A stretch of DNA of 64,000 bases from Thioalbus denitrificans (lineage in GTDB: Bacteria; Pseudomonadota; Gammaproteobacteria; DSM-26407). Numbering within the stretch: position 1 is the stretch's first letter; the number at the start of each line of letters is the position of its first letter. Of this stretch, positions 17,119 to 28,293 are shown piece by piece. Below the pieces are notes generated by a model. It did no database searches and was not told the DNA's origin. It saw only the letters and a program-made list of their open reading frames with translations. Both the position numbers and the translations under genes were made by a program. The stretch lies in NCBI RefSeq assembly GCF_003337735.1, contig NZ_QPJY01000001.1:144150-208149 (forward strand), written 5' to 3'.

Positions 17119-17805
17119 TCAACCGCCGGACTCGGAGAGGAGGTACTCGAGGTAGTCCAGGCGACGCAGGGAGAGGTCGATCTTGTACTTTAGCTCCTCG
17201 TCCACCTCCGCCAGCAGGTGGAGCAGGCTCTCGTGGAAGAAGACGCCGAAGCTGTCGAGGTAGCGCAGCTGGTAGCCGCGGTCGAGCACCAGGTTGTCCA
17301 CACCGAACAGATCGATCACCCGGGGATCCCGGTCCCCGTGCCAGCCGCGGGCGGCGGCGATGAAGCGGCGGAGCTGGTCGCGGGCGCGGCCGAGGCGGCG
17401 CAGCAGGGGCACCGCCTCCTCCTCGTTGCCCGGGTTGGCCAGGTTGAACCAGGGCGTGTGGGTGCGGGCGATGACCACCACGCTCGGCTCGCCGTCAACC
17501 TCGGTGTGGACGAACCGGGTGGCCGGGATGATCTCCCCCAGCGCCTCGCGCAGGGTGCGGTACTCGCGGGCGTAGACCCGGGCCTCGCGGAAGCCGCACG
17601 GCTGGCGGAACTTCTTGATGACCAGGTCGAGCGGCTCCTGGCCGCCGCCGCGCCGGATGCGGCCGGCCTGCTGCCAGACCTCGCAGTGGCTGCCGACGGT
17701 GGAGATGAGGGTGGCGGGCAGGTTGGCTGTGTCCAGGCAGGCGATGGTGCCGGGGATGCGGTCCACCTCCTTGCCGCCGGCCGGCCGATCGGATGGTTGC
17801 GCCAC
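17119..17805 (-). CDS. Uncharacterised protein with a kinase-like motif pattern
   Basis: I do not recognise this 228-residue protein. Its motif order resembles a protein-kinase-like fold: a beta-strand lysine in DLVIKKFR (Lys64/65), a hinge-like VVVIARTH, a catalytic-loop-like VIDLFGVDN (Asp165, Asp170, Asn171) and LDSFG (183-187) where kinases have DFG. The glycine-rich loop is not evident. It starts at GTG 17805 with GGAG 8 bp before, and a TATACT-like -10 lies at 17838-17843 on the minus strand. It follows hupR by 60 bp, so it may be co-transcribed with the hydrogenase genes or have its own promoter. No signal peptide or membrane segment is seen. Confidence 0.6.
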   Translation of the reverse strand: MAQPSDRPAGGKEVDRIPGTIACLDTANLPATLISTVGSHCEVWQQAGRIRRGGGQEPLDLVIKKFRQPCGFREARVYAREYRTLREALGEIIPATRFVHTEVDGEPSVVVIARTHTPWFNLANPGNEEEAVPLLRRLGRARDQLRRFIAAARGWHGDRDPRVIDLFGVDNLVLDRGYQLRYLDSFGVFFHESLLHLLAEVDEELKYKIDLSLRRLDYLEYLLSESGG

Positions 17806-19360: not shown

Positions 19361-20269
19361 TCAGTCCGTCCGCAGCTGTTGCTTCAATGTAGCCAAATTC
19401 CGTTCCAGATGAGAGATGTTCTCGGCGAGGAGCTGGTGCCGGCGCGCCAGGATCCAGTCGCACCAGGCCTCCAGACCGCTGCCGCCGGTGGCCGAAAGGG
19501 GGATGGCCTCGAGCCCGGGCTTCACCTGGCGGGCGTAGCCGAGGCAGCGCTCCAGGTCGAACTCCACGTAGGGCAGGAGGTCGATCTTGTTGATGAGCAG
19601 GAGGTCGGCGGCGTGGAACAGGTCCGGGTACTTGAGGGGCTTGTCCTCACCCTCGGTGACCGACAGGATGGCCACCTTGTGGGCCTCGCCGAGATCGAAC
19701 GCGGCGGGGCAGACGAGATTGCCCACGTTCTCGATGAACAGCACCCCGTGGGGCTCCGGCTGCAGGGTGTCGAGGGCGTGGCCGACCATGTGGGCGTCCA
19801 GGTGGCAGCCCTTGCCGGTATTGATCTGCAGCGCCGGGGCGCCGGCGGCGCGGATGCGCTCGGCGTCGTTGGCCGTCTGCTGGTCGCCCTCGATGACGGC
19901 AACCGGCAGCCGGTCGCGCAGCAGTTCGATGGTCCGGGTCAACAGCGTGGTCTTCCCCGAGCCGGGGCTGGAGACCAGGTTGAGGGCGAGGATGCCGGAT
20001 TCGGCCAGGCGCTTGCGGTTGGCCCCGGCGTAGGCGTCGTTCTTCGCCAGGATATCCCGCTCGATGCGCACCATGCGTGCCTGGCTGAGCCCGGGGGCAT
20101 GGGCGCGGGCGGGCCCGGCGCCGTAGTCGAGCAGCCCGGCGCCCGCCTGGTGCGCGTGTTCATGGTGATGTCCGTGAGCATGGGGATCACCGTCATGATG
20201 GTGTCCATGGTGGTGCCCCTCCCCGATCCGGGTCTCGCCTTCCCCGCAGCCGCATACCGTGCACATCAT
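19361..20269 (-). CDS. hypB: Hydrogenase nickel incorporation GTPase HypB
   Basis: HypB delivers Ni2+ to the hydrogenase large subunit with HypA, using GTP. The 302-residue protein has an N-terminal CTVCGCG metal site and a histidine-rich stretch with 13 His between residues about 18 and 41 ([20 protein letters not shown]), indicating nickel storage as well as delivery. The G domain shows [26 protein letters not shown], the metal-binding [21 protein letters not shown] and NKIDLLPY. Its ATG overlaps the hypA stop (ATGA), so the pair is coupled. Confidence 0.97.
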
Positions 20270-20607
20270 TCCACCTCCATTGAATGGATTCTCAGCTCTT
20301 CACCGCCGGTGACCTGAAGCTGGTGGCTATGGCAGCGGGGACAGGCGGAATGGCGCGCCGCCACAACCACCTGTGCGCCGCACGGCAGGCACCAGGCCTG
20401 TCCCGGCTGTTCGATGATCTCCAGGCGCGCGCCTTCGGCCACCGAACCGCGGGTGACCACATCGAAACCGAAGCGCAGGGCATCCGGTTCCACGCCCGCG
20501 AGCGCTCCGATCTCGAGCCACAGGGTGCGCACCCGGGTGAACGCCCCGTTCCGGTGCTGTTCCTCGATCACCTGCAGGATCCCTTCGCAGAGGGAGAGCT
20601 CATGCAT
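20266..20607 (-). CDS. hypA: Hydrogenase maturation nickel metallochaperone HypA
   Basis: A 113-residue nickel chaperone acting with HypB. It begins [11 protein letters not shown], where His2 and Glu3 are part of the nickel site, and has the zinc-binding CLPCG ... CPRCHS pair of CxxC motifs. The start overlaps the end of hupK by 8 bp and the end overlaps hypB by 4 bp. Confidence 0.97.
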
Positions 20608-21796
20608 GGCCGACCACCTCCAGCCGCCAGCCGACGCAGGGATCCACCGACTGGATCAGCAGCCCTACCCGCTCCTCCAGCCGGTCGTCGGCCGGGAGGC
20701 CCATCAGCCCCCGCGCCACCGCGCCGTTGGGGTGGAAGTTCCACTCCGTGGGAGCCAGGATCTGATAGCGCCGTACACTTGGTCCTTCCAGTTCCACCCG
20801 GTGCACCAGCCGGCCGCGGGCGGCTTCGACCTGGGCGAGTCCGACCCCGGCTGCCGTGGCGGGTGCCGGGGGAGCGGCATCGATGGAACGTCCGTTCAGG
20901 TTCCTGGCCATGGAGACGATGCGCTGGTGGATGACCGCCAGCTCGCAGAGTCTCGCCGCCGTCCGCGTAAGCAGGCCGTTGCCGTGACTGGCCGCGAGCG
21001 CCGCGACCAGCGGCAGGTGCCGCTGGCGGGTGCTGGCGCCGGTTTCGCAGGGCGTGTCATTCCAGCTGGGACGAGAGGTGAAGCCGGCATCCCCGCAGAA
21101 GCGGGCGTGCAGTTCCCAGGCCGGGGTTGCCGGCAGGGCAGGGATGTCGGACTGCCCCAGCCGGGACCATCCCCAAGCGGCAATGTGATGAACCAGGCGG
21201 GCCGCCACGGTCGATCCGCCCGCCGCCCAGCCAGCCAGGGCATCGCTCCCGGCGATCTTCCACCACTCCGGGATCCGCAGGCCGAATACCGAGCGTTCCA
21301 GTATTTCCGTCAGTCCCTCGATGCGTTCCTGCAGGGCAGCGGTGCGCACCCGCAGCGTGCCGCCGCCGGGATGGAAGCCGTCTCCCTCCGGGTAGAGCAG
21401 CGTGGAGATACCGTGGTTGAGCCGTGCCACAGACACCAGTTCCGGGGCGTGCGGTGTGTCGCCCAGTGCCGCGTGCCAGTCCAGCAGCACCCGCAGCAGG
21501 TGCTCGCGGGCACTTTCGAAGTCGACCAGCAAGGCACGCGCGTCCCGGTGCCCGGGATCGATCCGCAGGCCGAGCGCCTGTTCACAGGCCTGCACCGCGG
21601 CGCTGCCCTGGGCCGTGGCGCACACGCCGAACAGCAGCGGCAGGCTTCGCAGCACCTGTTCGATCGGCCGATCCCGGAACAACTGTTCCGCCGCCCGGGG
21701 CCGATCGGCGTGCAGGTCGACCCGGCACACCGCACCGGCGCGAATCGCCAGGCGCAGGCGGATGCACCCTTCCGGCGTTACGGAACGGTCGTTCAT
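20600..21796 (-). CDS. hupK: Hydrogenase maturation protein HupK (degenerate large-subunit-like)
   Basis: A 398-residue protein placed where HupK/HoxV proteins lie, between hupI and hypA. Those proteins resemble the NiFe large subunit and are thought to scaffold active-site assembly. Near the C terminus it has RYQILAPTEWNFHPNGAVARGLMG, like the large-subunit segment NYQ-x-(V/I)-x-PTTWN, followed by SVDPCVGWRL, where the active-site DPCxxCxxH is reduced to one cysteine. The N-terminal RxCGxC motif is absent. I start at ATG 21796, preceded by GGGAGG at about 8 bp; an upstream Met would add 10 residues. Confidence 0.85.
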   Translation of the reverse strand: MNDRSVTPEGCIRLRLAIRAGAVCRVDLHADRPRAAEQLFRDRPIEQVLRSLPLLFGVCATAQGSAAVQACEQALGLRIDPGHRDARALLVDFESAREHLLRVLLDWHAALGDTPHAPELVSVARLNHGISTLLYPEGDGFHPGGGTLRVRTAALQERIEGLTEILERSVFGLRIPEWWKIAGSDALAGWAAGGSTVAARLVHHIAAWGWSRLGQSDIPALPATPAWELHARFCGDAGFTSRPSWNDTPCETGASTRQRHLPLVAALAASHGNGLLTRTAARLCELAVIHQRIVSMARNLNGRSIDAAPPAPATAAGVGLAQVEAARGRLVHRVELEGPSVRRYQILAPTEWNFHPNGAVARGLMGLPADDRLEERVGLLIQSVDPCVGWRLEVVGHA

Positions 21797-21963
21797 TGTC
21801 TGCCTCCCAGAAGACTGCGCAGCCACTGCCGGCGGTTCATGCCCGGATGACGCGCGGGGGGTTCACAATGTTCGCCCAGCAGCGCCCCGAGCGCCGTCTC
21901 CGCGGTGAGCACGGCTGTCTCCTGTTCCTCGAACCGGTGCATGGCGAAGCCCTGCGGATCCAT
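21793..21963 (-). CDS. Small 56-residue protein of unknown function in the hup operon
   Basis: A 56-codon frame fills the space between hupI and hupK on the operon strand. It starts at ATG 21963, 4 bp after the hupI stop, and ends with TGA overlapping the hupK ATG (ATGA). It begins MDPQGFAMHRFEEQETAVL and ends with the basic/hydrophobic MNRRQWLRSLLGGRQ. The tail recalls the RR-containing start of a Tat signal but is C-terminal here. All neighbours are coupled by 1-8 bp overlaps, so an untranslated gap would be unusual. No family is recognised. Confidence 0.65.
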   Translation of the reverse strand: MDPQGFAMHRFEEQETAVLTAETALGALLGEHCEPPARHPGMNRRQWLRSLLGGRQ

Positions 21964-21967
21964 CGGA

Positions 21968-23056: not shown

Positions 23057-23476
23057 TCAGTGGCAGTTTGCGGTGGCGACGGGAATGCCGATGGTGGGCG
23101 GACGCACCGGTTCGGCTGTGAGGATGCGCTCGGCGCCGGCCAGGTAGTCGGCCCAGTCCTGCACCCGGGTGATGGTGCCCAGGTAGGCGCCCCGGCGCAG
23201 GAACACCAGCGCCGGCCAGGCGCTGAAGCCATAGCGACCCTGCAGGGCGGATTCGGCCCCGGCCGCCACCACGGCCGGCGTGACCCGCCCGTCGAGCGTC
23301 TTGACCAGTTCCGGGAGGATCACCGCCACGTCGCCGCTCTCCGGATAGCGCCCGGGATCACCGGCGAAGAACAGCACCACGTGCTCATGGGCGTGCAGAA
23401 AGGGGTCGAGGTCGTCGATTTCCAGGCGGGCGTAGCCCAGCTCCGTGACGAGACGATCGATCAGGGGTGAGCTCAT
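23057..23476 (-). CDS. hupG: Hydrogenase chaperone HupG (HyaE family, thioredoxin-like)
   Basis: A 139-residue thioredoxin-fold chaperone without the CxxC redox pair, as in HyaE, which binds the Tat signal of the small-subunit precursor and may delay export until clusters are in place. Visible are HEHVVLFFAGDPGRYPESGDV and GFSAWPALVFLRRGAYLG, given here as short pieces of the strand-loop core. The ATG at 23476 overlaps the hupF stop (ATGA). Confidence 0.92.
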   Translation of the reverse strand: MSSPLIDRLVTELGYARLEIDDLDPFLHAHEHVVLFFAGDPGRYPESGDVAVILPELVKTLDGRVTPAVVAAGAESALQGRYGFSAWPALVFLRRGAYLGTITRVQDWADYLAGAERILTAEPVRPPTIGIPVATANCH

Positions 23477-25428: not shown

Positions 25429-27219
25429 TCAGCGCACCTTCACCCGGGTCAGCTCCTCCCCCTCCGGGCTCATGACATGCGTGGAGCAGGCCAGGCAGGG
25501 GTCGAAGCTGTGCAGGGTGCGGAGGATCTCCAGCGGCTGCTCCGGATCCGCCAGCGGCGTGTTCATCAGCGCCGCCTCGAAGGCGCCGATGTTGCCGGCC
25601 GGATCCCGGGGCGAGCCGTTCCAGGTGGTGGGCACCACCGCCTGGTAGTTCTCGATGCGCCCGTCGCGGATGCGGATCCAGTGCCCCAGCGCGCCCCGCG
25701 GTGCCTCGGTGGTGCCCACCCCCCTGGCCTCCTTCGGCCAGGTGGAGGGGTCCCACTTGTCCACGTTGGCGGTGCTGGAGTCGCCGGCCTTGATGTTGGC
25801 CACCAGCTTGTCCTGGAAGTGGCGCATCTTGTCCGCCGCCCAGGCGCACTCCAGGCCGCGGGCGGCGGTGCGCCCGAGGGTGGAGAACAGCGCCGTGACG
25901 GGCAGCCCCAGGTCGGTGAGCACCTTGTCCACCGGCTCCTTGAACTCCGGGATGCCCCTGGAGTAGCCGATGATGTAGCGCGCCAGCGGCCCCACCTCCA
26001 TGGCGTGGCCGCGCCAGCGCGGGGCCTTGATCCAGGAGTACTTGGCGTTCTCGTCGATCTGCTCGATGCGGGTGCGGCTGCCCTTGGTGCCGGGCCCCAG
26101 CTCGAAGTTGGGCTCGGTGACCCCGTCCCAGGGGTGCAGGCCCTTGCTCTCGTCGGGATAGGTGAACCAGGAGTGGGCCACGTACTCCTGCACCTGGTCC
26201 GGGTCGGTGAGGTCCACGTCGTGCACCTCGGCCAAGTTGCCGTTGATGATGGCGCCCCGCGGCAGCAGCTGGTTGTCCGCCGAGTTGTCGTTGGCCCGCT
26301 CCGGGATGTCGCCGTAGGAGAGGACGTTGGTGGCCGACAGCCCGCCGCCGTGGAGCCAGTCCTTGTAGAAGCTGGCCACCGCCAGCAGGTCGGGGATGTA
26401 GACCTGGTTCACGAACTCGATGGAGCGGTCGATGATGGAGGAGACCAGGTTCAGCCGCTCCATGTTGACCGCGCCCACCGCCCCGGTGCCGTTCACGTTG
26501 ATGGCACACGGCACCCCGCCCACCAGCCAGTTGGGGTGCGGGTTCTTGCCGCCGTAGATGGTGTGGATCTTCACGATCTCCTTCTGGAAATCGAGCGCCT
26601 CCAGGTAGTGGGCCACCGCCATCAGGTTGGCCTCGGGCGGCAGCTTGTAGGCGGGGTTGCCCCAGTAGCCGTTCATGAACGGTCCCAGCTGCCCCGATTC
26701 CACGAAGCGCTTCACCCGCCCCTGCACGTCGCGGAAGTAGCCGGGCGAGGAGAGGGGCCAGCTGGAGATGCTCTGGGCCAGCTCGGAGGTGGCCTTCGGA
26801 TCCGCCTTGAGCGCGCTCACCACGTCCACCCAGTCCAGGGCGTGGAGATGGTAGAAGTGCACCAGGTGATCGTGCACCTGCAGGGTCAGCTGCATGATGT
26901 TGCGGATGGAGTTGGCGTTCTCCGGGATCTGGATGCCCAGGGCGTTCTCCACGGCGCGCACCGAGGTGAGCGCATGGGTACCGGTGCAGACCCCGCATAT
27001 GCGCTCGGTGAAGGCCCAGGCGTCGCGCGGGTCGCGGTTCTTCAGGATCACCTCCAGCCCGCGCCACATGGTGCCGGTGGAGACCGCGTTGCGGATGACG
27101 TTGTTCGCGTCCACGTTCACCTCGCAGCGCATGTGGCCCTCGATGCGGGTGACGGGATCCACCACCAGGCGGCGGCCGGTGGTGTCCAGGTTGTAGCCGT
27201 TGGGTGTCGTGGTGGTCAT
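25429..27219 (-). CDS. hupL: Uptake [NiFe]-hydrogenase large subunit
   Basis: The catalytic subunit that splits H2 at the NiFe(CN)2CO site, exported to the periplasm with HupS. The 596 residues carry RICGVC (Cys75 and Cys78) and DPCLACSTH (573-581), the four nickel-ligating cysteines, followed by a 15-residue C-terminal extension ([15 protein letters not shown]) that HupD would remove after His581. Also seen are [12 protein letters not shown] and [16 protein letters not shown]. The ATG directly follows the hupS TAG with no gap. Confidence 0.98.
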
Positions 27220-28293
27220 CTACTCGTCTCCTTTCTCGCGCACGCGCTTGATGGCGCTGGCCGCGGCATGGGCGGCCACGGCCGCGCCCACCACCCCGGC
27301 GGCGGTGCCGCCCACGGCGTCGGCGTTCGCCTCGACGCCGAACTGGTGGATGTCGGTGAGGCGGTCATAGAAGCTGCCCTTGTCCCAGAAACCGTCCTCG
27401 GAGCAGCCGATGCAGCCATGGCCGGACTGGATGGGGAAGGAGACGCCGCCGTTCCAGCGCACCGTGGAGCAGGCGTTGTAGGTGGTGGGGCCCTTGCAGC
27501 CCATCTTGTAGAGGCAGTAGCCCTTGCGCGCCGACTCGTCGTCCCACGCCTCCACGAACTGGCCGGCGTCGAAGTGGGGCCGGCGGTAGCACTTGTCGTG
27601 GATGCGCTGGCTGTAGAACATCTTCGGCCGCCCCTGGCGGTCCAGCTCGGGGATGCGCTCGAAGGTGAGCATGTAGGTGATGACCCCGGTCATCACCTCG
27701 GCGATGGGCGGGCAGCCCGGCACCTTGATGATGGGCTTGTCGGTGATCACCTTGTGCACCGGCGTGGCCCGGGTCGGGTTGGGCCGGGCCGCCTGGACGC
27801 AGCCCCAGGAGGCGCAGGAGCCCCAGGAGATGATGGCCTTGCAGTCGGCGGCCACCTCGCGCAGCTGTTCCACGAAGGGCCGGCCGCCGATGATGCAGGA
27901 CATGCCGTCCTGGTTCAGCGGCGGGTTGCCCTCCACCGCCAGGATGTAGTTGCCCTTGTACTTGCTGCGCACCTCCTCGAGTATCGCCTCGGCCTGGTGG
28001 CCGGCGGCGGTCATGATGGTGTCGTCGTAGTCCAGCGAGATCATGGACAGCACTACGTCCTTGACCAGCGGATGGGCCGAGCGGATGAAGGACTCCGAGC
28101 AGCAGGTGCACTCCAGGCCGTGGAGCCACAGCACCGGGGTGCGGGGCTTGGTCTCCATCGCCTGGGCGATGCGGCCCACGTAGGCCGGGCCCAGCCCCAG
28201 GGCCGTGGCCGTGAGGCTGCAGTACTTGAGGAAGCTGCGGCGGCTGATGCCCTGCCGTCGCATCACCTCGTAGAAGGTTTCGGTTTTCGCCAT
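27220..28293 (-). CDS. hupS: O2-tolerant uptake [NiFe]-hydrogenase small subunit
   Basis: The FeS electron-transfer subunit, 357 residues. A Tat signal has SRRSFLK (Arg18-Arg19) and a hydrophobic stretch; a C-terminal membrane anchor lies at about 315-340. The proximal cluster region shows six cysteines: LECTCC (Cys62, Cys64, Cys65), GSCASWGC (Cys160, Cys165) and VPGC (Cys194). The extra Cys64 and Cys165 match E. coli Hyd-1 Cys19 and Cys120, the hallmark of the [4Fe-3S] cluster of O2-tolerant group 1d enzymes. It heads the hupSLC operon behind a sigma-54 promoter. Confidence 0.98.

Follow-up and report, generated by a model that had tools for sequence, protein, structure and literature searches.

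The hup operon of Thioalbus denitrificans raises the question of what fills the space between hupI and hupK. In the window, a 64,000-nucleotide stretch of the genome, this space holds one open reading frame on the minus strand, running from an ATG to a TGA stop (21963..21793) and encoding 56 amino acids; hypB is also among its neighbours (Table 1). A sequence-only reading of the window had taken the frame to be an unannotated gene, possibly for an accessory factor or a remnant of a HupJ-like protein. Its coordinates agree with ours: four bases (21964-21967) separate the hupI stop codon from the ATG of the frame, and the stop codon (21793-21795) shares an ATGA overlap with the hupK start (21794-21796), so that the frame shows on both sides the close spacing typical of translational coupling. 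That reading had also described every neighbouring junction as a tight overlap. This holds for hupH/hupI, hupK/hypA, hypA/hypB and hupF/hupG, but hupG and hupH are separated by a 10-bp gap. A HupH scan of genome contigs returned a single locus, L064. Elsewhere in the window, a 228-codon frame follows a response-regulator gene on the minus strand (17119-17805).

Table 1. Features of the hup operon in the window, with the evidence for each.
Feature	Coordinates	Strand	Evidence
hypA	20266..20607	-	translation; BLAST against hypA of relatives
hupK, 398 aa, intact	20600..21796	-	Pfam NiFeSe_Hases C-terminal match; 35-42% identity to HupK of 12 relatives; start and stop codons
Probable hupJ remnant, 56 codons; HupJ/HoxT/HybE C-terminal tail without the core domain	21793..21963	-	Pfam PF11939, HupJ profile, slot
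GGGAGG, Shine-Dalgarno-like, inside the final codons of the remnant, its end 6 nt upstream of the hupK ATG	21798..21806	-	direct reading of the sequence
Residues 42-55, MNRRQWLRSLLGGR: conserved C-terminus of HupJ, including the twin arginine	21799..21840	-	RRxx[L/F] in 37/37 full-length HupJs
Residues 8-44, aligned to the HupJ C-terminal helix, linker and first N/R of the tail	21832..21942	-	alignment; AlphaFold helix 3-32
hupI, rubredoxin-type, 73 aa	21968..22189	-	Pfam Rubredoxin, E 3e-22; start and stop codons
hupH, 286 aa	22186..23046	-	Pfam HupH_C, E 9e-62
hupG (HyaE-like)	23057..23476	-	Pfam HyaE, E 3e-28; start codon placed
hupL and hupS, structural genes (names presumed from the families); HupS Tat motif SRRSFLK	25429..28293	-	translations

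By sequence comparison, the frame is the C-terminal tail of HupJ, a member of the HoxT/HybE family. The only Pfam family found for the peptide was PF11939 (NiFe-hyd_HybE), with an E value of 0.031 and a score of 14.6 bits against a curated cut-off of 25. The match is confined to positions 104-146 of the 147-position profile; the core of the family (profile 1 to about 103, with its TPWFMNL stretch) is missing, while the C-terminal helix region and the (S)RRxxL end are present, with N in place of S and W-L in place of L/F-L. We built a more specific profile from the HupJ sequences of 21 relatives (the last 190 residues of each, with rough N-termini and the window's own sequence left out). Against it the peptide scored 17.1 bits, compared with 6.8 bits for the best of 20,000 shuffles, and ranked first among the 937 stop-to-stop frames of the window (E 5e-4, with the runner-up at 0.29). 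The median local score of the peptide against HupJs was 47, and shuffled versions (n=300) reached at most 32. With tblastn, the locus was reached by 3 of 37 HupJ queries at E 0.05. The claim that the product matches no hup protein falls: its RRQWLRSLLGG tail is the C-terminus of HupJ, and an RRxx[L/F] motif occurs within the last 40 residues of all 37 full-length HupJs, preceded by S in 32 of them.

The best match of the peptide was the HybE protein of the same genome's second hydrogenase operon (score 79, with the next at 58). When we searched 94 relatives with the peptide, 40 had a match at E ≤1, the window's own genome included, and these were mostly noise; those inspected among the best (L001 on contig C6 of the same genome, L004 and L005) were all HybE tails, with L006-L032 left out. 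A plasmid search at E 10 gave three records; their matches span 38% of the query, lie under a methyltransferase gene and were judged to be chance.

These results bear on whether the frame could be a new accessory gene with no relation to HupJ, or simply a chance frame in a spacer. A 56-codon stretch would stay open by chance with P ~0.32 at the base composition of the window, so openness alone is weak evidence, and the Pfam match does lie below its cut-off. The profile and shuffle tests disagree with this explanation, and the position is exactly the one HupJ usually takes; it is the homology and the position that lift the frame above chance. We consider an unrelated or chance frame strongly disfavoured and extremely improbable, and a new accessory factor was rejected on the same two grounds. 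Loss of the hupJ core would leave a short frame in the hupI-hupK slot, so that such a frame is to be expected there; the proposal of an unannotated gene for a new factor is thus unsupported, whereas its companion suggestion, a remnant of a HupJ-like protein, is backed by Pfam, the profile, the shuffles and the slot. An ordinary gene remnant, not a new gene, is the most likely identity of the frame.

The HupJ chaperone core, about 100 residues, is missing; the peptide retains a helix, by prediction, and the end NRRQWLRSLLGG with its twin arginine. No match to the N-terminal part of HupJ was found at the window's own hup locus. AlphaFold, run on the single sequence, predicts a two-helix peptide with a helix at residues 3-32 (mean pLDDT 77); a prediction of the L064 HupJ alone was too poor for use (mean pLDDT 49). 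The charges are unevenly distributed, as the sequence-only reading had noticed: five D/E and one K/R in the first half, two D/E and five K/R in the second. Because two defining features of PF11939 were tested and found lacking, a score at the cut-off and the core domain, we regard the peptide as a truncated variant without functional membership of the family.

The C-terminus of the HybE from the same genome (L001) reads DRRGFFRKLLGG, and that of E. coli HybE reads GRRALLFGRRSGENA. The HupJ/HybE family is known for binding Tat signal peptides. The twin arginine at the C-terminus of HupJ/HybE proteins lies near the Tat consensus S-R-R-x-[L/F]-[L/F], with RR in 37 of 37 (for example L001 1432-1971, L002 1405-2001 and L103 1312-1800), and from its sequence this end looks like a C-terminal pseudo-signal.

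To compare the slot between hupI and hupK in relatives, we searched 369 genomes of the class for HupK, 38 of which gave a match, and ran an alignment of 13 HupKs against 398 genomes of the phylum, where 36 matched at 1e-15, many of them as large-subunit hits. The search was then extended to the G342 family (5 genomes) and the G065 family (24 genomes), and the DNA next to hupK was read in the genomes found by all of these searches. Altogether 65 loci were examined, and hupK was counted by its TEWNFH motif, giving 44 hupK loci. The 21 loci without this motif, with low-scoring hits to hydrogenase large subunits among them, stay in the total of 65 but outside the hupK count; L060, L062 and L081, which belong to these 21, do have a HupK-like frame.

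A full-length HupJ lies within 150 nt upstream of hupK at 24 of the 44 loci, mostly overlapping it. At eight more (L068-L072 and L074-L076, from eight genomes of one family), HupJ lies 719-761 nt upstream. HupJ was not detected at 10 of the 44 hupK loci. Two of these ten are L098, where fragments of HupJ occur, and L102, which is part of a contig from the genome that also contains L100. The remaining two loci, the window and G342 with its decayed operon, have a tail-only HupJ. Full-length HupJs total 37, five of them at loci without the TEWNFH motif. The conservation asked of the 56-codon frame is therefore found in part: the tail is kept in relatives within full-length HupJ, but no other clean tail-only frame occurred among the 65 loci examined. 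The one same-genus genome among those searched, G001, had no match for hupK; the closest HupK in the class search shares 43% identity. The slot itself agrees with published gene orders: the order in Rhizobium leguminosarum is hupSLCDEFGHIJK (PMC3534401), and Dechloromonas aromatica has a HupI of 66 aa, a HupJ of 156 aa and then HoxV (PMC2907700). The 719-761 nt gap between hupJ and hupK in the family of eight genomes leaves room for an additional gene.

Decay of hupJ beside an open hupK was seen in G342 and G747, two members of a different family. In G342 (L035, G342:C93, 2600-3318) the C-terminal part of hupJ lies just before an open hupK frame with its core gone, as in the window; unlike in the window, hupI is also lost, hupH has an in-frame stop and the operon is visibly decaying. 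In G747 (L098, G747:C249, 1-1480) the operon is rearranged: hupK is preceded by fragments of HupJ in two frames, next to a frame that resembles a flagellar hook protein. A third broken hup operon, at L096 (G395:C1), has hupK split over frames and hypB split too.

We consider it quite probable that the frame is what remains of hupJ after its core was lost by in-frame deletion. The order before the loss would have been hupH-hupI-hupJ-hupK, as in most relatives; because ten hupK loci are without a detected HupJ, this ancestral state can only be inferred. A deletion of about 100 codons would have taken the HybE-type core but spared hupJ's stop codon, its twin-arginine tail and the hupK overlap, and the ATG after the hupI stop could be either hupJ's own or one newly placed by the deletion. 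The absent domain, the weak codon bias and the parallel decay in G342 and G747 all point to a remnant: GC3 is 0.75 in the frame, compared with 0.933 ± 0.058 over 140 gene slices (2.1% equally low), and values this low were found in 2 of 66 slices from hupK, hupI, hypA and hupH. Against it stand the sub-cut-off Pfam score, the few tblastn queries that reach the locus and a tail that is unbroken and well matched. A neutral remnant would erode with time, and the intact tail could mean either a young deletion or a tail in use.

The same join between hupI and the tail could in principle have arisen in the assembly, with a full hupJ present in the organism and its core dropped. The genome assembly does consist of 21 contigs, but the locus lies in the interior of a 958-kb contig and the join gives one clean frame, starting 4 bp past hupI, with no stop or frameshift. 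We regard such an error as very doubtful.

If the frame is a hupJ remnant, its spacing suggests that it may still be translated, coupling hupI to hupK: ribosomes finishing hupI would restart at the ATG of the remnant and terminate at the ATGA where hupK begins. This placement may be what keeps the frame open. Two studies describe translational coupling at overlaps of the ATGA type (PMC6728339, PMC10666635). The GGGAGG inside the end of the remnant is likely to be the Shine-Dalgarno site for hupK. Since the domain is absent, we would expect no signal-peptide-binding chaperone activity in the peptide.

The genome has two other HybE genes, both full-length and both over the Pfam cut-off. One lies on contig C6, in the second hydrogenase operon, and its product could provide the missing step in trans. 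The other has as a neighbour a putative gene that we take to be NrfD-like. At L002 (G000:C2:561292-564774), the HybE-family protein at 1405-2001, over the Pfam cut-off, has neighbours that look NrfD-like and TorD-like by eye, and no hydrogenase gene was seen in the 3.5-kb stretch covered.

It is tempting to speculate that the peptide is instead a working, tail-only HupJ, a microprotein whose helix and twin-arginine end bind an assembly partner such as HupK, HupG/HupH or the Tat machinery, perhaps in concert with the HybE that the second operon encodes. The end that it retains is one of the best-conserved regions of HupJ, its frame, spacing and overlap are all intact, two helices are predicted, and its tail is closest to the HybE of its own genome. 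Yet there is no second clean case in the 65 loci, its sole companions sit in decayed or rearranged operons, and its codon bias is weak compared with that of the surrounding genes. Such a working tail seems unlikely to us, and we think it rather improbable that HupJ is reducible to a C-terminal helix and a Tat-like twin-arginine end, as a 56-residue microprotein still functional in hydrogenase assembly. If it were, the conserved tail would be a part of HupJ that works on its own, for instance by mimicking the Tat motif of the small subunit, and a functional tail would give a handle on the role of the conserved twin-arginine end in HupJ/HybE.

With the core lost from hupJ as the preferred reading, a previously unannotated stretch is assigned as a truncated hupJ, which adds a case of an otherwise intact-looking hup operon without the HupJ core and suggests that an operon can lose the HupJ factor or have it provided in trans. 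HupJ is a family already known; within part of the hydrogenase literature naming HupJ, no truncated form is described. The remnant resembles the HupJ/HoxT of hup and hox operons in its slot between hupI/hoxR and hupK/hoxV, its C-terminal helix region, its twin-arginine end and its overlap with hupK. At 56 codons it is shorter than the HupJ frames of most relatives, which measure about 165 to 230 aa from stop to stop, and it lacks the core with the ITPWFMNL stretch. E. coli HybE (PDB 2kc5) and the HybE of the genome's own second hydrogenase operon (L001) both have a tail homologous to that of the remnant and, unlike it, the full domain.
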